From: Sphingobacteriales bacterium 39-19
Lineage (GTDB): Bacteria > Bacteroidota > Bacteroidia > Chitinophagales > Chitinophagaceae
DNA: 64,000 nucleotides
Direction: 5' to 3'
NCBI GenBank assembly: GCA_001898465.1
Contig: MKTX01000015.1
Span: forward strand, 227,412-291,411
The notes under the pieces: model-generated
Told to the model about the DNA's origin: nothing
What the model saw: only the letters and a program-made list of their open reading frames with translations
The model's database searches: none
Made by a program: the position numbers and the translations under genes
Part shown: piece after piece, positions 1,914-64,000 of the stretch
How positions within the stretch are numbered: the first letter of the stretch is position 1
How the letters are laid out: each line of letters opens with the position of its first letter

Positions 1914-3821
1914 ATGGGAAAAATAATTGGAATAGATTTAGGTACTACCAATAGTTGCGTTGCTGTAATGGAAGGTAACGAACCAGTAGTTATTGCTAAC
2001 GATGAAGGGCGGCGTACCACTCCTTCGGTAGTAGCATTCTTAAAAAATGGGGAACGTAAGGTAGGCGACCCCGCTAAGAGGCAGGCTATTACCAACCCAC
2101 AAAATACCATCACCAGTGTGAAGCGTTTTATGGGACGCCGTTTTGATGAAGTAACGGAAGAAAGCAGCCACTGGAGCTATAAAATTGTAAAAGGTGACAA
2201 TAATACCGTACGTATTGATATTGATGGCCGCCCTTATACCCCACAGGAAATTAGCGCCATGATTTTGCAAAAAATGAAAAAAACAGCTGAAGATTACCTG
2301 GGCCAGGAAATTAATGAAGCCGTAATTACCGTACCTGCTTATTTTAATGATGCACAGCGCCAGGCGACTAAAGAAGCGGGTGAAATTGCCGGGCTTACAG
2401 TTCGCAGAATTGTAAATGAACCTACGGCTGCAGCACTGGCTTATGGATTGGATAAAGGAAAACACGATCAAAAAATCGCTGTGTTTGACTTGGGGGGTGG
2501 TACATTTGATATCTCTGTACTGGAATTGGGAGATGGTGTTTTTGAAGTAAAATCTACCAATGGCGATACCCACCTGGGTGGTGATGATTTTGATAAAGTG
2601 ATCATGGATTGGTTGGCAGAAGATTTTAAATCAGAAGAAAATATTGACTTACGTAAAGACCCCATGGCTTTACAGCGTTTAAAAGAAGCCTCAGAAAAAG
2701 CCAAAGTAGAATTATCCTCATCTACCGAAACTGAAATTAACCTTCCTTATATTACTGCAGTGGATGGGGTGCCAAAACACCTGGTAAAAAAATTAACCCG
2801 TGCCAAGTTTGAATCACTGGCCGATAAATTATTTGACCGCTGCCTGAAACCCTGCGAAACCGCATTGAAAGATGCAGGCATGAGCGCTTCAGACATTAAT
2901 GAAGTGATCCTGGTAGGAGGTAGCACCCGTATTCCTAAGGTACAGGAAATTGTAGAAAAGTTTTTTGGCCGCAAACCTCATAAAGGTGTAAACCCCGATG
3001 AAGTGGTAGCCATTGGCGCTGCTATACAAGGTGCGGTATTAACTGGTGAAGTAAAAGATGTATTATTACTGGATGTTACGCCACTTAGCCTGGGTATTGA
3101 AACAATGGGTGGTGTAATGACAAGGTTAATTGATAGCAATACAACCATCCCTACAAAAAAATCTGAAACTTTTTCTACTGCCAGCGATAACCAGCCGGGT
3201 GTACAAATACACGTTTTACAAGGAGAAAGGCCCATGTCAAATCAAAACAAAAGCCTGGGTACCTTTAATTTAGACGGTATTCCACCGGCTCCCCGGGGTG
3301 TTCCTCAAATTGAAGTAACATTTGATATTGATGCCAACGGTATTTTACATGTAAGCGCAAAAGATAAAGGAACCGGTAAAGAACAAAAAATAAGAATTGA
3401 AGCGGGTAGTGGTTTAAGCAAAGAAGAAATAGAAAAAATGAAAGCCGATGCCAAGGCCAATGAAGCTTCGGATAAAGCCGAAAAAGAAAAAATAGAAAAA
3501 ATAAACCAGGCCGATAGCTTGATTTTCCAAACCGAAAAGCAATTGAAAGAATACGGCGATAAAATACCCGGCGATAAAAAATCAAATATTGAAGCCGGCC
3601 TGAATAAATTAAAAGAAGCCCATAAATCGCAGGATCTGCCAACTATTGATGCAGCTGTTACCGAATTGAATGCGGCATGGACGGCTGCCAGTGAAGATAT
3701 GTACAAGGCTACACAAGATGGCGGTGCCCAACCTCAGCAAGATGCCGGCGCTCAGGGAGATGCCAATGCAGGTGCGGGTGCAGATAATGTAACCGATGCT
3801 GAATTTGAAGAGGTAAAATAA
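1914..3821 (+). CDS. dnaK: Molecular chaperone DnaK (Hsp70)
   Basis: [49 protein letters not shown]-terminal [11 protein letters not shown]. Confidence 0.98.
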
Positions 3822-53548: not shown

Positions 53549-53575
53549 GAAAAAGCCCCCGTCAAAGTCGAGGGC
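53549..53575 (-). terminator. Terminator of candidate tracrRNA
   Basis: Minus strand GCCCTCG-ACTTTGA-CGGGGGC-TTTTTC. Confidence 0.8.
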
Positions 53576-53640
53576 AACTTAATGTTTTCACAACGGGATA
53601 AACCCTTATTGCGATTTGCTTCGTTGTAAAAATAGATATA
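53549..53640 (-). ncRNA. Candidate tracrRNA, divergent from cas9
   Basis: Minus strand reads ...ACGAAGCAAATCGCAATAAGGGTTTATCCCGTTGTGAAAACATTAAGTTGCCCTCGACTTTGACGGGGGCTTTTTC. AAGCAAATCGCAAT (complement of 53608-53621) pairs over 14 positions, including 2 G-U wobbles, with crRNA GTTGTGATTTGCTT. Terminator stem GCCCTCG/CGGGGGC plus U-tract. 5' end not defined. Confidence 0.85.
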
Positions 53641-53662: not shown

Positions 53663-56600
53663 ATGAGTAAAAAAATTTTAGGACTTGATCTTGGAACTAC
53701 TTCAATTGGTTGGGCTTTTGTAAGAGAAGCTGAAGATTTTCAGGAAGAATCATCCATAGAAAGGATAGGCGTGAGAGTAAATCCATTAACAACAGATGAA
53801 CAAATAAATTTTGAAAAAGGGAAGCCTATATCTGTAAATGCAGATCGCACCCTTAAACGTGGAGCAAGACGCAACTTACAACGATACAAACAACGCAGAA
53901 CTAACCTCATACAATTATTAAAACAATATAAAATAATAAATGAAAATACAATTCTAGCAGAAGACGATAAAAATACAACGCACAGTACTTATGCATTACG
54001 GGCAAAAGCAGTATCTGAAAAAATAAGCAAAGAGGCCTTTGCCAGAGTTTTGTTGATGATTAATAAAAAAAGGGGGTATAAAAGCAGCCGGAAAGCCAAA
54101 AATGAAGATGAAGGGCAAGCCATAGATGGAATGTCAGTTGCAAAAAGATTGTATGAGGAAGATATAACTCCGGGGCAACTTTGCCTGCAATTGCTGAAAG
54201 AAGGTAAAAAAAAATTACCAGATTTCTATCTTTCTGATCTGCAAGCAGAACTTGAAAAAATCTGGAATTTTCAGAAAAAATTCTATCCGGAAATATTAAC
54301 TGATGAATTTAAAAAAGAAATTGAAGGAAAGGGACAACGAGCAACATCAGCAAGTTTTTGGGCTAAATATAAATTTAATACAGCTGAAAATAAAGGTTCA
54401 AGAGACGAAAAGAAAATGCAAGCATGGGAATGGAGAAGCAAAGCGATAAATACACAACTTACAAGAGAAGAAGTAGCATATGTAATTACTGAAATCAACA
54501 ATAATATTAATAATTCAAGTGGCTACCTTGGTGCAATCAGTGATAGAAGCAAAGAGCTTTATTTTAATAAAGAAACAGTTGGAGAGTATTTATTCAGGCA
54601 ATTACGCTACAGTCCTCATACAAGAGTAAAGAATCAAGTATTTTACCGGCAAGATTACTTAGATGAATTTGAAACTATTTGGGAAAACCAATCAAGATAT
54701 CATAACGAACTGACTAATGAACTGAAATCAGAAATAAGGGATGTAGTAATATTTTATCAGAGAAAATTAAAATCTCAAAAGGGCTTGATAAGCTTTTGTG
54801 AGTTTGAAAGCAAGCAAATTGAGATTCAAAAAGATGGAAAGATTGTAAAGAAAATAATTGGATTAAAAGTTTCGCCTAAGTCCTCACCATTATTTCAGGA
54901 ATTTAAAATATGGCAAATACTGCAGAACCTGGAATTTACAAATAAAGAAACTAAGGAAAAGAAAGTACCAGATTTTGAAGCAAAAAATCTTCTTTTTGAA
55001 GAACTCAATATTAAGGGAAACTTAAAAGGTGAAAAGGCGATTGAAATATTAGGATATAAACCAAAAGAATGGTTGGTAAATTATAAAGAATTAGATGGGA
55101 ATCGTACTAACCAGGTGTTATATGAAGGATACTTAAAGATATTGGAAGTAGAAGGTTATGATATTAAGGATTTACTAAAAATAAAATCAAATAAAGATGA
55201 AGTTAATCTTTCAGAATTATCAAAGCCTGTTTCTGAAATAAAAGATTTAATAAAATCAATCTTTGAATCCCTAAATATTAATACAGCCATACTCGACTTT
55301 AATCCTGAATTAGAAGGAAAAGATTTTGAAAGACAAGCATCTTACCAGTTATGGCATTTATTATATTCATATGAAGGCGACAATTCTAATACGGGCAACG
55401 ATGAATTGTATAGGCTATTATATCAAAAATTCGGGTTTGGTAAAGAGCATGCCCAAATTTTAGCTAATTTATCGTTTTCACAAGATTACGGGAGTTTGAG
55501 TGCCAAAGCAATGCGAAAAATTTATCCTTTCATTAAAGAGAATAGTTATAGTGAAGCTTGTTCACTTGCCGGTTACAATCATTCATCCTCTATTACAAAG
55601 GAAGAAAATGACAAAAGAGAATTAAAAGAAAAATTGGAATTGCTTCCTAAAAATAGTCTTCGCAATCCTGTAGTTGAAAAAATTCTGAATCAGATGGTAA
55701 ATGTCATAAACGCCATCATTGCAGACCCTTCCATGGGAAGGCCAGATGAGATTCGGATTGAACTAGCAAGGGAATTAAAGAAAAACGCAGCTGAAAGGGC
55801 AGAAATGACAATACATATTAATAAAGCAAAATCTGAGCATGATAATTACAGGAAAATACTTACTACCGAATTTGGAATACCCAACCCTACTCGAAATGAT
55901 ATAATCAGGTATAAATTATATGAAGAGTTAAAAGTAAATGGTTACAAAACACTTTATTCTAATACATATATACCAAGAGAGAAGTTATTTTCAAAGGAAT
56001 TTGACGTAGAACATATTATACCTAAGGCATTATTATTTGATGATAGTTTTTCTAATAAAACAATTTGTGCAAGACAGGAGAACTTAGATAAGGGTAACAA
56101 AACAGCTTTCGATTTTATTCAGTCTTTCTATGGAAAGGAAAAATTTGAAGAATATTTACAAAGAATTGAGAGTCTTGCAAAAATTAAAGAAGGTGATACA
56201 TTCGTAATTAGTAAAGCGAAGTATAAAAAACTTTTACTACCAGAAATCGAAATAGGAGAGGGATTTATAGAAAGAGATTTGCGCAACAGCCAATATATTG
56301 CCAAGAAGGCCAAAAGTATGCTGCTGGATATATGTAAAACAGTTGTCCCAACAACTGGAAGCATTACTGACCGTTTACGAGAAGACTGGGGACTCATTAA
56401 TATTATGCAGGAACTGAATTTTGAAAAATATAAAAAATTGGGTTTGATTGAAATGGTTGAGAAAAAAGATGGTAGTTTCAAAGAACGTATTACAGATTGG
56501 ACCAAACGCAATGATCATCGCCATCATGCTATGGATGCTTTAACAGTTGCATTTACAAAGCATAATCACATTCAGTATCTTAATTATCTGAATGCCCGTA

Positions 56601-57877
56601 AAAATGAAAACCATAAAATGCATGGGAATGTAATTGCAATAGAACAAAAAGAAACGGAACTTCTTGTAGATAGTGTAGGTAAAAGAAAGAGGAAGTTTAA
56701 ATTGCCTATATCTAATTTTCGGGAAGTTGCCAAAATGCATTTAGAAAACATTTTGGTTTCCTATAAAGCCAAAAATAAAGTTGCAACTAAAAACAAGAAC
56801 CGTTTTAAAACAAAAAATGGGGAGAAAGTTAAAATAGAACTAACTCCGAGAGGGCAACTGCATAAGGAAACTGTATATGGCAAAATGAAAAAATATGAAA
56901 CTAAAGAAGAAATAATTGGTTCTAAATTTGATGAAGCAACGATATTGAAAGTAGCCAATCTTGAACAACGAAATGCATTACTCCAAAGATTAAAAGAGAA
57001 TAACAACGACCCTAAAAAAGCATTTAGTGGAAAAAATAGTTTAAAAAGCAATCCCCTCTATTATGGGGTTGATAGCAAGCCAATACCTGAGAGGATAAAG
57101 ATTGTTTGGTTGGAAGATGATTATACCATTCGAAAAGAAATTACACCAGATTTAAAAATTGATAAAGTAATAGATATTGGAATTCGGCGTATCCTTGAAA
57201 ATAGATTAGCAGAATTCAATGGAAATGCAAAAGAAGCTTTTTCAAATCTTGAAAAAAATCCTATTTGGCTAAATGAAGGTAAAAGAATTGCGATAAAAAG
57301 AGTTACCATTAGTGGCGTAAAAAATGCCGAAACACTGCATTATAAAAAAGATCATTTAGGCCATGAAATGCTTGATAAGCAGGGGAAAAGAATACCTGTA
57401 GATTTTGTTAGTACAGGTAACAATCATCATGTTGCAATATACAAAGATGATAAAAGTGATTTACAAGAAAAGGTTGTATCATTTTATGAAGCTGTAGAAA
57501 GAATAAATCAAGAATTACCCATAATTGATAAATCTTTTAACCATGATTTAGGCTGGCAATTCCTTTTTACGATGAAACAAAATGAGTATTTTGTCTTCCC
57601 GAGAGATGGTTTTGACCCTTATGAAATTGATTTATTAAATCCTGATAATTATAAAATAATTAGTCCCAATCTATTTAGAGTACAAAAAATTGCTACTAAA
57701 AATTACGTATTCAATCATCATCTTGAAACAAAAGCAGTTGATGGAGAATTATTAAAAACTAAAAAAGATCTATCTGATATAACTTACCGCTTTATTCAAA
57801 CACCTGTTAATCTCAAAAATATTATTAAAGTTCGTATAAACCATATTGGTCAAATCGTAAAAATTGGAGAATATTAA
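53663..57877 (+). CDS. cas9: Type II-C Cas9 (1404 aa)
   Basis: RuvC-I KKILGLDLGTTSIGWAFV; Arg-rich bridge helix RTLKRGARRNLQRYKQRRTNLIQLL; RuvC-II EIRIELARELKK; HNH FDVEHIIPKALLFDDSFSNKTI; RuvC-III DHRHHAMDALTVAFT. Confidence 0.98.
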   Translation: MSKKILGLDLGTTSIGWAFVREAEDFQEESSIERIGVRVNPLTTDEQINFEKGKPISVNADRTLKRGARRNLQRYKQRRTNLIQLLKQYKIINENTILAEDDKNTTHSTYALRAKAVSEKISKEAFARVLLMINKKRGYKSSRKAKNEDEGQAIDGMSVAKRLYEEDITPGQLCLQLLKEGKKKLPDFYLSDLQAELEKIWNFQKKFYPEILTDEFKKEIEGKGQRATSASFWAKYKFNTAENKGSRDEKKMQAWEWRSKAINTQLTREEVAYVITEINNNINNSSGYLGAISDRSKELYFNKETVGEYLFRQLRYSPHTRVKNQVFYRQDYLDEFETIWENQSRYHNELTNELKSEIRDVVIFYQRKLKSQKGLISFCEFESKQIEIQKDGKIVKKIIGLKVSPKSSPLFQEFKIWQILQNLEFTNKETKEKKVPDFEAKNLLFEELNIKGNLKGEKAIEILGYKPKEWLVNYKELDGNRTNQVLYEGYLKILEVEGYDIKDLLKIKSNKDEVNLSELSKPVSEIKDLIKSIFESLNINTAILDFNPELEGKDFERQASYQLWHLLYSYEGDNSNTGNDELYRLLYQKFGFGKEHAQILANLSFSQDYGSLSAKAMRKIYPFIKENSYSEACSLAGYNHSSSITKEENDKRELKEKLELLPKNSLRNPVVEKILNQMVNVINAIIADPSMGRPDEIRIELARELKKNAAERAEMTIHINKAKSEHDNYRKILTTEFGIPNPTRNDIIRYKLYEELKVNGYKTLYSNTYIPREKLFSKEFDVEHIIPKALLFDDSFSNKTICARQENLDKGNKTAFDFIQSFYGKEKFEEYLQRIESLAKIKEGDTFVISKAKYKKLLLPEIEIGEGFIERDLRNSQYIAKKAKSMLLDICKTVVPTTGSITDRLREDWGLINIMQELNFEKYKKLGLIEMVEKKDGSFKERITDWTKRNDHRHHAMDALTVAFTKHNHIQYLNYLNARKNENHKMHGNVIAIEQKETELLVDSVGKRKRKFKLPISNFREVAKMHLENILVSYKAKNKVATKNKNRFKTKNGEKVKIELTPRGQLHKETVYGKMKKYETKEEIIGSKFDEATILKVANLEQRNALLQRLKENNNDPKKAFSGKNSLKSNPLYYGVDSKPIPERIKIVWLEDDYTIRKEITPDLKIDKVIDIGIRRILENRLAEFNGNAKEAFSNLEKNPIWLNEGKRIAIKRVTISGVKNAETLHYKKDHLGHEMLDKQGKRIPVDFVSTGNNHHVAIYKDDKSDLQEKVVSFYEAVERINQELPIIDKSFNHDLGWQFLFTMKQNEYFVFPRDGFDPYEIDLLNPDNYKIISPNLFRVQKIATKNYVFNHHLETKAVDGELLKTKKDLSDITYRFIQTPVNLKNIIKVRINHIGQIVKIGEY

Positions 57878-57925: not shown

Positions 57926-57928
57926 TCC

Positions 57929-58825
57929 ATGATAAAGCGGACTCTTTATTTTGGGAACCCTGCGTATTTAAAAACCAATAACGACCAGCTTGTTATTGAT
58001 ATGCCCAATGCTGTTGAATCAAAATCAACACCCATTGAAGATATCGGCTTGCTGGTGCTGGACCACCAGCAAATTACCATTACACAAGCCTTACTGGCTA
58101 AATTATTAGCCAATAATACGGCCGTTATAACCTGCGATAATACCCACCATCCCACCGGCATGATGCTAAGCCTCGACGGGCATAGCCTGCAAAGCCAGAA
58201 ATTCCGGGCGCAGCTCGCTGCTACCATCCCGCTAAAAAAACAACTCTGGCAACAAACCGTAATAGCTAAAATAAAAAACCAGGCAGCCCTGCTGGCCGGT
58301 ACCAGGCAGGAAAATAAAATATTAATAAACCTTGCTTTAGAGGTAAAAAGCGGCGATGCTGAAAACTGCGAAGCACAGGCCGCTGCCTATTACTGGAAAA
58401 AACTGTTCCCGGGTTTCCTGGCATTTAAAAGAGACCGGTATGGGCCGCCCCCCAATAATTTACTGAATTATGGCTATGCTATCCTTCGGGCATCTGTAGC
58501 CCGTAGCCTGGTGGCAAGCGGCCTGCTTCCTACCCTGGGCATACATCACCGCAACCAGTACAATGCCTATTGCCTGGCCGATGATATCATGGAGCCATAC
58601 CGCCCCTATGTGGACTATACCGTTTACCATATTGTGATGAATAATGGTAAGTATCTTGAGATGACTCCTTCTATGAAAAAAGATTTACTGGCCATACCTG
58701 CCATGGATGTAACCATCGATGGCAAAAAGAGCCCCCTGATGAATGCCGTGCAGCGAACCACGGCCAGCCTGGCAAAATGTTATGAAGGCTGTTCCAGGAA
58801 AATATTATATCCTGAAATGGAATGA
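57929..58825 (+). CDS. cas1: CRISPR-associated endonuclease Cas1 (type II)
   Basis: MIKRTLYFGNPAYLKTNNDQLVI..., LLNYGYAILRASVARSLVASGLLPTLGIHHRNQYNAYCLADDIMEPYRPYVD; ATG at 57929. Confidence 0.95.
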   Translation: MIKRTLYFGNPAYLKTNNDQLVIDMPNAVESKSTPIEDIGLLVLDHQQITITQALLAKLLANNTAVITCDNTHHPTGMMLSLDGHSLQSQKFRAQLAATIPLKKQLWQQTVIAKIKNQAALLAGTRQENKILINLALEVKSGDAENCEAQAAAYYWKKLFPGFLAFKRDRYGPPPNNLLNYGYAILRASVARSLVASGLLPTLGIHHRNQYNAYCLADDIMEPYRPYVDYTVYHIVMNNGKYLEMTPSMKKDLLAIPAMDVTIDGKKSPLMNAVQRTTASLAKCYEGCSRKILYPEME

Positions 58826-58843: not shown

Positions 58844-59188
<345 letters not shown>

Positions 59189-59266
59189 AAAAATCATTCA
59201 AAAAAGTAGCTGGTGGGGCCATATCATTTTTGTAAATTTCCTAATTAAAACGGGGTGAACAGGAAT

Positions 59267-59293
59267 AAAAAATGCTCAATCAGAGCATTTTTT
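59267..59293. terminator. Bidirectional terminator between cas2 and the array
   Basis: Perfect AAAAAATGCTC-AATCA-GAGCATTTTTT; U-tract on both strands. Confidence 0.8.
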
Positions 59294-61108
59294 TAATTCT
59301 AAAACTTAGTTCAAGATCATTAAAATCAGCAACTTATAAGGTTCGTACTGTGAAAGAACTAAGCTACTAAAAAATTTGAAAGCAAATCACAACAAGCGGC
59401 TCCGGTTTGTGTTATTAATAAAACTGTGAAAGAACTAAGCTACTAAAAAATTTGAAAGCAAATCACAACTAAATATACTTTTTTCATTTTTATAATTTAC
59501 TGTGAAAGAACTAAGCTACTAAAAAATTTGAAAGCAAATCACAACATCGGCCTTACAGCGTTGAGCCAAAAGGAACTGTGAAAGAACTAAGCTACTAAAA
59601 AATTTGAAAGCAAATCACAACTCAGTTACTACCTGCGCTCAGTGAATGACTACTGTGAAAGAACTAAGCTACTAAAAAATTTGAAAGCAAATCACAACAT
59701 AGCATCCCCGTTATAATTGGCGCCACTAACTGTGAAAGAACTAAGCTACTAAAAAATTTGAAAGCAAATCACAACCAAAATGCTAATAACGGTACTGCGT
59801 TAAAAACTGTGAAAGAACTAAGCTACTAAAAAATTTGAAAGCAAATCACAACCACGCCTCCGGTGGATAGCTTCACTGCTTTACTGTGAAAGAACTAAGC
59901 TACTAAAAAATTTGAAAGCAAATCACAACTATTCTTCCACGGCATGACCGGCAACGGCAACTGTGAAAGAACTAAGCTACTAAAAAATTTGAAAGCAAAT
60001 CACAACTCCAGTGGGAAAGTTGTTATTTTTGGCTCTACTGTGAAAGAACTAAGCTACTAAAAAATTTGAAAGCAAATCACAACCTCCAGATCTTAGCAGT
60101 TTCTGCAGCAATTACTGTGAAAGAACTAAGCTACTAAAAAATTTGAAAGCAAATCACAACAACCGCAAATACAACTGTAATCTCAGTGGAACTGTGAAAG
60201 AACTAAGCTACTAAAAAATTTGAAAGCAAATCACAACACAAAACGTCCGGACTCGTTAAAGAATAAACTGTGAAAGAACTAAGCTACTAAAAAATTTGAA
60301 AGCAAATCACAACAGTCATATAATTAACTGTTTTTTCATTAAACTGTGAAAGAACTAAGCTACTAAAAAATTTGAAAGCAAATCACAACCTCAGTTACTG
60401 GCTGGCAATATACTGGCGAACTGTGAAAGAACTAAGCTACTAAAAAATTTGAAAGCAAATCACAACTGTTGTTCAATTCAAACGGTGCTGTGTACTACTG
60501 TGAAAGAACTAAGCTACTAAAAAATTTGAAAGCAAATCACAACTACCGTGTAAATGTATATTTTCAGTTCCGACTGTGAAAGAACTAAGCTACTAAAAAA
60601 TTTGAAAGCAAATCACAACAGTAATGTAATTAACTGTTTTTTCATTAAACTGTGAAAGAACTAAGCTACTAAAAAATTTGAAAGCAAATCACAACAAAGA
60701 AAATATGCGGCACTTATAATTAAAAACTGTGAAAGAACTAAGCTACTAAAAAATTTGAAAGCAAATCACAACATACACCCAGCAAGTATTTCCATGCCTG
60801 TGACTGTGAAAGAACTAAGCTACTAAAAAATTTGAAAGCAAATCACAACACCAATGGTTCACATACTGCAACGATACAAACTGTGAAAGAACTAAGCTAC
60901 TAAAAAATTTGAAAGCAAATCACAACTACCTCCTAATTTCTGCCTGGCCCTACCTAACTGTGAAAGAACTAAGCTACTAAAAAATTTGAAAGCAAATCAC
61001 AACTAATCATGTTATGTAATTTGACCTAATCGACTGTGAAAGAACTAAGCTACTAAAAAATTTGAAAGCAAATCACAACAAACGTGCAGTGCGGAACAGG
61101 GTTATTTG

Positions 61109-62517
61109 ACTGTGAAAGAACTAAGCTACTAAAAAATTTGAAAGCAAATCACAACCCTTACTGTTCCCACGACCTGGTAGTCGTTACTGTGAAAGAACTA
61201 AGCTACTAAAAAATTTGAAAGCAAATCACAACTAAACTTTTGTACGAGCTACTTCACTTAAAACTGTGAAAGAACTAAGCTACTAAAAAATTTGAAAGCA
61301 AATCACAACTGTATCTTTCAATATATGCGGCCCGTTTGGACTGTGAAAGAACTAAGCTACTAAAAAATTTGAAAGCAAATCACAACTACTTGCTACTGCC
61401 TTAAATGTTGCTAAGGACTGTGAAAGAACTAAGCTACTAAAAAATTTGAAAGCAAATCACAACTAACAAAGCCAGATCCATCGAATAAGACAACTGTGAA
61501 AGAACTAAGCTACTAAAAAATTTGAAAGCAAATCACAACTTACATTCAACAAGCAGCAACGGTGCATCTACTGTGAAAGAACTAAGCTACTAAAAAATTT
61601 GAAAGCAAATCACAACATAATCACCTGCTTCCCAAACTACATCAGTACTGTGAAAGAACTAAGCTACTAAAAAATTTGAAAGCAAATCACAACATACCTT
61701 TAAAATTATATGCACTTTCTCCGACTGTGAAAGAACTAAGCTACTAAAAAATTTGAAAGCAAATCACAACATTGAATGAGTTGGAGATTGGCTATCCCGA
61801 ACTGTGAAAGAACTAAGCTACTAAAAAATTTGAAAGCAAATCACAACGCCCCAGCCGGGTTACGCCCTGGGCTATAAACTGTGAAAGAACTAAGCTACTA
61901 AAAAATTTGAAAGCAAATCACAACCCAGGAAGAATTTTACCAGGGCTGTTTTGAACTGTGAAAGAACTAAGCTACTAAAAAATTTGAAAGCAAATCACAA
62001 CGCAGCCTGACGGGACCATATTTAAAATACACTGTGAAAGAACTAAGCTACTAAAAAATTTGAAAGCAAATCACAACACCTCCGAATTAATTTTATATGC
62101 AAAATCAACTGTGAAAGAACTAAGCTACTAAAAAATTTGAAAGCAAATCACAACAATGTGGCATAATGGGTACGCTAAGGCAATACTGTGAAAGAACTAA
62201 GCTACTAAAAAATTTGAAAGCAAATCACAACTACTTCGTAGATTGATAAATATTGTACAGGACTGTGAAAGAACTAAGCTACTAAAAAATTTGAAAGCAA
62301 ATCACAACTTGTAACCATTCATTCTTTTTACTTCTACAACTGTGAAAGAACTAAGCTACTAAAAAATTTGAAAGCAAATCACAACGAGCAAACTTCGCAG
62401 TATGTAAGATGGGGTACTGTGAAAGAACTAAGCTACTAAAAAATTTGAAAGCAAATCATCCCTACGACATAGTAGGGATGAAAGAACTAAGCTACTAAAA
62501 AATTTGAAAGCAAATCA
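61109..62517. repeat. Copy 1 of 1409-bp duplicated array block (17 spacers plus hairpin)
   Basis: Spacer order CCTTACTG... through GAGCAAAC... and hairpin is repeated exactly at +1443 bp. Confidence 0.9.
62456..62481. repeat. Hairpin insert 1 in CRISPR array
   Basis: TCATCCCTAC-GACATA-GTAGGGATGA, 10-bp perfect arms; replaces spacer and 5 bp of both flanking repeats. Confidence 0.9.
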
Positions 62518-62551
62518 CAACCTCAGTTACTGGCTGGCAATATACTGGCGA

Positions 62552-63960
62552 ACTGTGAAAGAACTAAGCTACTAAAAAATTTGAAAGCAAATCACAACCC
62601 TTACTGTTCCCACGACCTGGTAGTCGTTACTGTGAAAGAACTAAGCTACTAAAAAATTTGAAAGCAAATCACAACTAAACTTTTGTACGAGCTACTTCAC
62701 TTAAAACTGTGAAAGAACTAAGCTACTAAAAAATTTGAAAGCAAATCACAACTGTATCTTTCAATATATGCGGCCCGTTTGGACTGTGAAAGAACTAAGC
62801 TACTAAAAAATTTGAAAGCAAATCACAACTACTTGCTACTGCCTTAAATGTTGCTAAGGACTGTGAAAGAACTAAGCTACTAAAAAATTTGAAAGCAAAT
62901 CACAACTAACAAAGCCAGATCCATCGAATAAGACAACTGTGAAAGAACTAAGCTACTAAAAAATTTGAAAGCAAATCACAACTTACATTCAACAAGCAGC
63001 AACGGTGCATCTACTGTGAAAGAACTAAGCTACTAAAAAATTTGAAAGCAAATCACAACATAATCACCTGCTTCCCAAACTACATCAGTACTGTGAAAGA
63101 ACTAAGCTACTAAAAAATTTGAAAGCAAATCACAACATACCTTTAAAATTATATGCACTTTCTCCGACTGTGAAAGAACTAAGCTACTAAAAAATTTGAA
63201 AGCAAATCACAACATTGAATGAGTTGGAGATTGGCTATCCCGAACTGTGAAAGAACTAAGCTACTAAAAAATTTGAAAGCAAATCACAACGCCCCAGCCG
63301 GGTTACGCCCTGGGCTATAAACTGTGAAAGAACTAAGCTACTAAAAAATTTGAAAGCAAATCACAACCCAGGAAGAATTTTACCAGGGCTGTTTTGAACT
63401 GTGAAAGAACTAAGCTACTAAAAAATTTGAAAGCAAATCACAACGCAGCCTGACGGGACCATATTTAAAATACACTGTGAAAGAACTAAGCTACTAAAAA
63501 ATTTGAAAGCAAATCACAACACCTCCGAATTAATTTTATATGCAAAATCAACTGTGAAAGAACTAAGCTACTAAAAAATTTGAAAGCAAATCACAACAAT
63601 GTGGCATAATGGGTACGCTAAGGCAATACTGTGAAAGAACTAAGCTACTAAAAAATTTGAAAGCAAATCACAACTACTTCGTAGATTGATAAATATTGTA
63701 CAGGACTGTGAAAGAACTAAGCTACTAAAAAATTTGAAAGCAAATCACAACTTGTAACCATTCATTCTTTTTACTTCTACAACTGTGAAAGAACTAAGCT
63801 ACTAAAAAATTTGAAAGCAAATCACAACGAGCAAACTTCGCAGTATGTAAGATGGGGTACTGTGAAAGAACTAAGCTACTAAAAAATTTGAAAGCAAATC
63901 ATCCCTACGACATAGTAGGGATGAAAGAACTAAGCTACTAAAAAATTTGAAAGCAAATCA
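62552..63960. repeat. Copy 2 of 1409-bp duplicated array block
   Basis: Same spacer order and hairpin as 61109-62517. Confidence 0.9.
63899..63924. repeat. Hairpin insert 2 in CRISPR array
   Basis: TCATCCCTAC-GACATA-GTAGGGATGA. Confidence 0.9.
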
Positions 63961-63983
63961 TCCCTACGGCATAGTAGGGATGA
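63958..63983. repeat. Hairpin insert 3 (loop variant) in CRISPR array
   Basis: TCATCCCTAC-GGCATA-GTAGGGATGA, 59 bp after insert 2. Confidence 0.9.
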
Positions 63984-64000
63984 AAGAACTAAGCTACTAA

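Follow-up and report, generated by a model that had tools for sequence, protein, structure and literature searches.

The 64,000-nucleotide stretch of DNA analysed here (the window; G000:C15:227412-291411) contains a type II CRISPR locus in which cas9, cas1 and cas2 are intact, and its position 64000 is the end of the contig, since C15 stops at base 291411. The features of the locus are:

53550..53632, minus strand: tracrRNA, with the anti-repeat GAAGCAAATCGCAAT followed by stem-loops and a terminator (hairpin plus T-run)
53663..57877, plus strand: cas9 (type II-C; TIGR01865, E 1.5e-142)
57926..58825, plus strand: cas1 (type II family; TIGR03639, E 4e-92)
58853..59188, plus strand: cas2 (TIGR01573, E 7.8e-21)
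59189..59346, no strand: leader (acquisition end), containing AAAAAATGCTCAATCAGAGCATTTTTT at 59267-59293
59347..64000, minus strand: CRISPR array, truncated where the contig stops; its repeat of 47 bp reads GTTGTGATTTGCTTTCAAATTTTTTAGTAGCTTAGTTCTTTCACAGT on the crRNA strand

The gene order is that of type II-C systems, in which cas9-cas1-cas2 is followed by leader and array, without a fourth adaptation gene after cas2. The array itself comprises 61 repeat cores and 40 distinct normal spacers of 29-30 bp. The anti-repeat of the tracrRNA forms a contiguous 15-bp duplex with the minus-strand repeat GUUGUGAUUUGCUUU, and because of this pairing the crRNA is read from the minus strand, from the side of contig C10, which meets the array at the end of C15, towards cas2. 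Transcription of II-C arrays is reported to run towards the variable, leader end (PMC8092290); the crRNA direction given here by tracrRNA pairing and leader position is likewise towards the leader, with the promoters in the repeats being putative. An A/T-run palindrome resembling AAAAAATGCTCAATCAGAGCATTTTTT is found beside the first repeat, on the cas2 side, in G016, G017, G025, G042, G049 and G061, and congener arrays with a nearly identical repeat have an A/T-rich palindromic leader at cas2, several of them also with altered last repeats at the far end. Given the tracrRNA direction and this conserved cas2-side leader, it is well supported that the hairpin tract described below is leader-distal, in the oldest part of the array and upstream in its crRNA transcript. 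In the window, the leader segment at 59267-59293 is an 11-bp perfect hairpin with A/T runs on both flanks, and may serve either as a terminator or within the acquisition signal.

A preliminary description of this DNA had reported three hairpins between truncated repeats of the type II-C array, and all three were recovered by searching the window. ATCCCTACGRCATAGTAGGGAT occurs exactly at 62458-62479 and 63901-63922, both times with the loop GACATA, and a third hairpin of the ATCCCTACGRCATAGTAGGGAT type, with the loop GGCATA, lies at 63960-63981. With up to 3 mismatches allowed, the number expected by chance in the window is 0.01. Counting the TC and GA flanks contributed by the repeat, the arms are 10 bp and perfect around a 6-nt loop, and the units are:

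62456..62481, no strand: hairpin unit 1, loop GACATA
63899..63924, no strand: hairpin unit 2, loop GACATA, copy of unit 1
63958..63983, no strand: hairpin unit 3, loop GGCATA, heading a tandem run that continues on contig C10

Each hairpin is preceded by a repeat from which ACAAC is missing and followed by one from which ACTGT is missing, and the hairpin units are spaced by 59 bp, against 76-77 bp for every other unit of the array. The arms, loop, repeat losses and period reported earlier are thus all reproduced. The preliminary description had added that unit 3 is not a simple copy of unit 2; the loops of these two differ by a single transition, and unit 2 repeats unit 1 through a 1443-bp duplication of the array. 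Arms of 10 bp in the hairpins compare with at most 6 bp in 40 of the 40 distinct normal spacers, repeat flanks included, and the hairpin is therefore no chance property of one spacer. For a random 20-mer of the same composition, the 7 outer positions pair with P = 8.6e-5, or about 0.005 across the array.

When the hairpin was sought in the whole host genome (G000; 3.32 Mb, 18 contigs), five copies were found: three in C15, and a pair carrying the loop GGCATA at the C10 end (126957-127037, minus strand). The genome-wide search advocated in the preliminary description thus adds two copies, at the C10 end only, and these bear out its guess that further units would follow past the window. Read in the array direction, C10 presents a hairpin, a core, a second hairpin, a truncated core ...TTTGAAAG and gcaagtatacaagc, a degenerate repeat end, before unique sequence begins, and the tract closes on this far side in the truncated repeat ...TTTGAAAGgcaagtatacaagc. 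The ends of C15 and C10 share an exact overlap of 41 bp, and the junction of the contigs falls within a series of tandem 59-bp hairpin units beside the degenerate terminal repeat. The GGCATA units of this tract, which stand behind one GACATA unit, number two or more, or at least three should the overlap not reflect true adjacency. Other contig ends also share repeats with one another, so this assembly commonly breaks at repeats.

The inner hairpin belongs to a larger rearrangement, the parts of which are:

61109..62517, no strand: duplicated block, copy 1, with spacers 24-40, the hairpin and the next core
62552..63960, no strand: duplicated block, copy 2, with the same spacer series at an offset of 1443 bp
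62480..62521, no strand: chimeric repeat (core 42), the crossover junction, in which the left end (GGGAT) is of the hairpin type and the right end (ACAAC) is normal

In the assembly as built, 17 spacers and the hairpin are repeated in identical order, spacer 14 stands between the two block copies, after the chimeric repeat, and spacers 15-23 are absent from the second copy. Core 42 is a recombinant of the hairpin-tract repeat with the repeat preceding spacer 14, and its position at the duplication junction is that expected of tandem amplification. With a chimeric repeat next to the inner hairpin and the 17 spacers recurring in unchanged order, the origin of this hairpin by the 1443-bp array duplication, a recombination step, is well supported. 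Replication misalignment is the accepted cause of repeat-spacer duplication and deletion (SpacerPlacer, PMC11472070), and the 1443-bp duplication, the chimeric junction repeat and the loss of spacers 15-23 from the second copy all resemble block events of that type, from which the present case differs in that the block also carries the abnormal 59-bp unit besides spacers.

The distribution of the hairpin was followed in 94 genus genomes (host included) and in samples of 399 family and 399 order genomes, both of which overlap the genus set. In its repeat context, and with up to 3 mismatches, the hairpin is absent from the 93 congeners, and the comparison with related CRISPR arrays that had been suggested earlier finds it missing from every related array recovered. 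Among the 399 family genomes, searched with one repeat-end pattern only, the short repeat-to-repeat gap junction occurs only in the host, bar one chance match in another genus, and in the order sample 1 of the 399 genomes matches with one mismatch, in unrelated coding sequence. With a free loop, the host genome contains no hairpin family, nor was a family of repeated palindromes found in a 474-kb sample of it, and a genome-contig collection searched in the same way returns matches scattered over unrelated phyla, none with the CRISPR repeat motif. A scan of the viral collection with short arms gave generic matches among the matches listed, Rfam returned a sub-threshold CRISPR repeat match only, and a literature search for hairpin or palindromic spacers within CRISPR arrays did not retrieve a description of such a unit. 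The hairpin is neither phage sequence nor a conserved element.

We consider it reasonably likely, with a probability of about 0.62, that mutation specific to this strain left the hairpins as a scar in the leader-distal part of an ordinary II-C array, by way of a template switch followed by amplification through recombination. According to this model, terminal decay would have altered the last bases of the preceding repeat from ACAAC to ATCCC before the switch; the array end is known to decay similarly, as a leader-distal repeat of G024, from the same genus, ends in ...GCAAATCATCAC (ATCAC). A nascent strand carrying ...GCAAATCATCCCTAC-GRCATA would then snap back during replication and copy its own arm to give GTAGGGATGA, having copied TCATCCCTAC plus six bases before folding, and would rejoin the template at the TGA of the following repeat (ACTG-TGA-AAG). 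One such event would generate the perfect hairpin, delete 18 bp (period 77 to 59) and remove the first 5 bp (ACTGT) of the next repeat. The 59-bp unit could subsequently multiply via slippage or unequal exchange across the identical 37-bp cores, with an A/G change acquired in one loop, and a larger exchange between the post-hairpin repeat and the repeat before spacer 14 would duplicate the array tail and carry one hairpin inward. We infer the template switch and the slippage from a tract whose position, orientation, uniqueness, tandem arrangement and chimeric repeat are directly observed.

A single template-switching event can produce a perfect hairpin, and in E. coli such switching occurs at quasipalindromes (PMC8794818, PMC7202029). 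The units described here share with such mutations the perfect 10-bp arms, the short loop, the net deletion and, at the point of return, a TGA microhomology common to the next repeat; unlike the template switches described, the present one is read from its product, with no ancestral sequence beside it (PMC7202029, PMC8794818). An ancestral or sister array with an intact junction was not found among the sampled relatives, and for this reason the switch is not reconstructable. The 10-bp arms are also partly due to the TCA/TGA symmetry of the repeat itself. In common with leader-distal degenerate terminal repeats, the tract lies beside a truncated last repeat and its repeat ends are eroded; it differs in that its eroded junction forms a perfect hairpin and occurs in tandem copies. 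An aberrant integration or recombination scar had been the third candidate of the preliminary description, of which the recombination part is now the best supported, while the integration part falls away for a leader-distal scar amplified between repeat cores.

The same product would also be expected if a pre-made palindrome had been inserted with a deletion. A small mobile element of the REP or MITE kind could have entered a leader-distal repeat or spacer, removed the repeat ends and been amplified with the array, and the leader-distal end does take inserts: the last repeat of G033, at the leader-distal end, contains a different palindrome, TCCCGAATCTGGTTCGGGACAAG, of which that genome has one near-copy elsewhere, and the array of G061 holds a 2.3-kb insertion with IS66-like ORFs. 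A palindrome insert in the last repeat of G029 was considered as a further parallel and set aside, the palindrome being imperfect and the tested pattern unmatched in that genome, which leaves G033 as the only clean parallel. The hairpin resembles REPs of the GTAG/CGTC superfamilies (PMC3733652) as a 20-40 bp palindrome, but unlike them it is not dispersed, is low in copy number and lacks an unpaired tag. In place of many dispersed intergenic copies there are five, all within the array; the flanks are CRISPR repeat, with GTAG inside the right arm, and there is no target-site duplication. Together with its absence from the repeats of 93 congeners and the single unrelated coding match in the order sample, this makes such an insertion unlikely, and the REP-like candidate put forward earlier, which would call for a tagged family, is not sustained. 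An origin of the hairpin in a true old spacer with a palindromic protospacer, of which it would be the worn core, is the least probable of the readings considered. A contig of the viral collection does contain CCCTACGGCATAGTAGGG, as the stretch of a hexapeptide-type acetyltransferase gene that encodes PYGIVG in ...APYGIVGGNPAK..., so a natural palindromic protospacer could exist, and the 20 bp together with the 10 lost bp would make up one spacer. However, a single exact match is within chance for so large a collection, the host genome has no matching gene and the flanks able to confirm the protospacer are gone; the acetyltransferase match is probably a coincidence. The gene lies on the minus strand of L249, with the 18-base hairpin core near 3116-3133 (PYGIVGGNPAK).

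An artefact of assembly or library preparation where the two contigs join would account for both contigs stopping within the tract with an exact 41-bp overlap, and the copy number and the 1443-bp duplication are as the assembler gave them. It is nevertheless improbable, considering that the hairpin unit is present at two separate places in C15 as well as at the C10 end, that its one-base variant is consistent and the chimeric repeat junctions are clean, and that a contig break is expected anyway at 59-bp tandem repeats. The hairpin is not a sequence that we recognise as an adapter, and presumably is none. Comparably small is the likelihood of a functional RNA, in which the hairpin at the upstream end of the pre-crRNA would serve as a 5' cap or insulator, or the units as decoy crRNAs occupying tracrRNA and Cas9. 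If transcribed, a unit would yield a crRNA without a guide, consisting of a stable hairpin and then a repeat that lacks its five guide-adjacent bases. Its predicted fold is strong (-15.7 kcal/mol, z about -6), the core retains 10 of the 15 tracrRNA-pairing bases and the part of the repeat that harbours II-C promoters is preserved in the unit (PMC8092290). On the other hand, the units are seen in one genome and are absent from related arrays with nearly the same repeat, the tracrRNA stem loses the 5 bp adjoining the guide, and a single loop substitution is the sole variation, which leaves no covariation test. That a run of spacer-less hairpin-crRNAs is kept as structured decoy or cap RNAs, tuning tracrRNA/Cas9 supply or shielding the 5' end of the pre-crRNA, is slightly less probable still. 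Nor is the role of punctuation or terminator proposed earlier supported: the hairpin is followed by GAAAG on the plus strand and TTTGC on the minus strand, with no U-tract, and the tract is at the upstream, not the downstream, end of crRNA transcription and missing from related arrays. A role of the hairpin as tracrRNA was rejected, as the real tracrRNA sits upstream of cas9.

A mutational scar needs no function, and a functional role of the units is unsupported; the hairpin run has the appearance of a scar left by mutation in one strain, not of a new functional component. The array tail is a compact natural record of CRISPR decay and expansion at the old end, combining a probable snap-back mutation, the tandem growth of a defective unit and a block duplication that returned the defect among working spacers. 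Hairpin units of this kind would be miscalled by CRISPR finders and would break assemblies.

Several minor observations were made in the same arrays. In the window, spacers 13 (60314-60342) and 17 (60620-60648) are near-identical (AGTCATATAATTAACTG... and AGTAATGTAATTAACTG..., 2 differences), which suggests two captures from variant copies of one target. The palindrome TCCCGAATCTGGTTCGGGACAAG is located on L187 (G033:C59) at about 1643-1665, and in a spacer of L187 starting AGAGTTCTGTTGTGATTG the repeat end recurs as its complement, so that TCACAACAGAGTTCTGTTGTGA makes a hairpin of 10 bp, with 2 nt in the loop, that spans the border of repeat and spacer. The insertion of G061, at 8816-11160 of L181 (G061:C72), has three ORFs, judged by eye to resemble an IS66-type element, and splits a II-C array. 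On L177 (G017:C16), at 1543-2710, a lone degenerate repeat is found 1.1 kb past the last good one, and the interval contains a 138-aa ORF.
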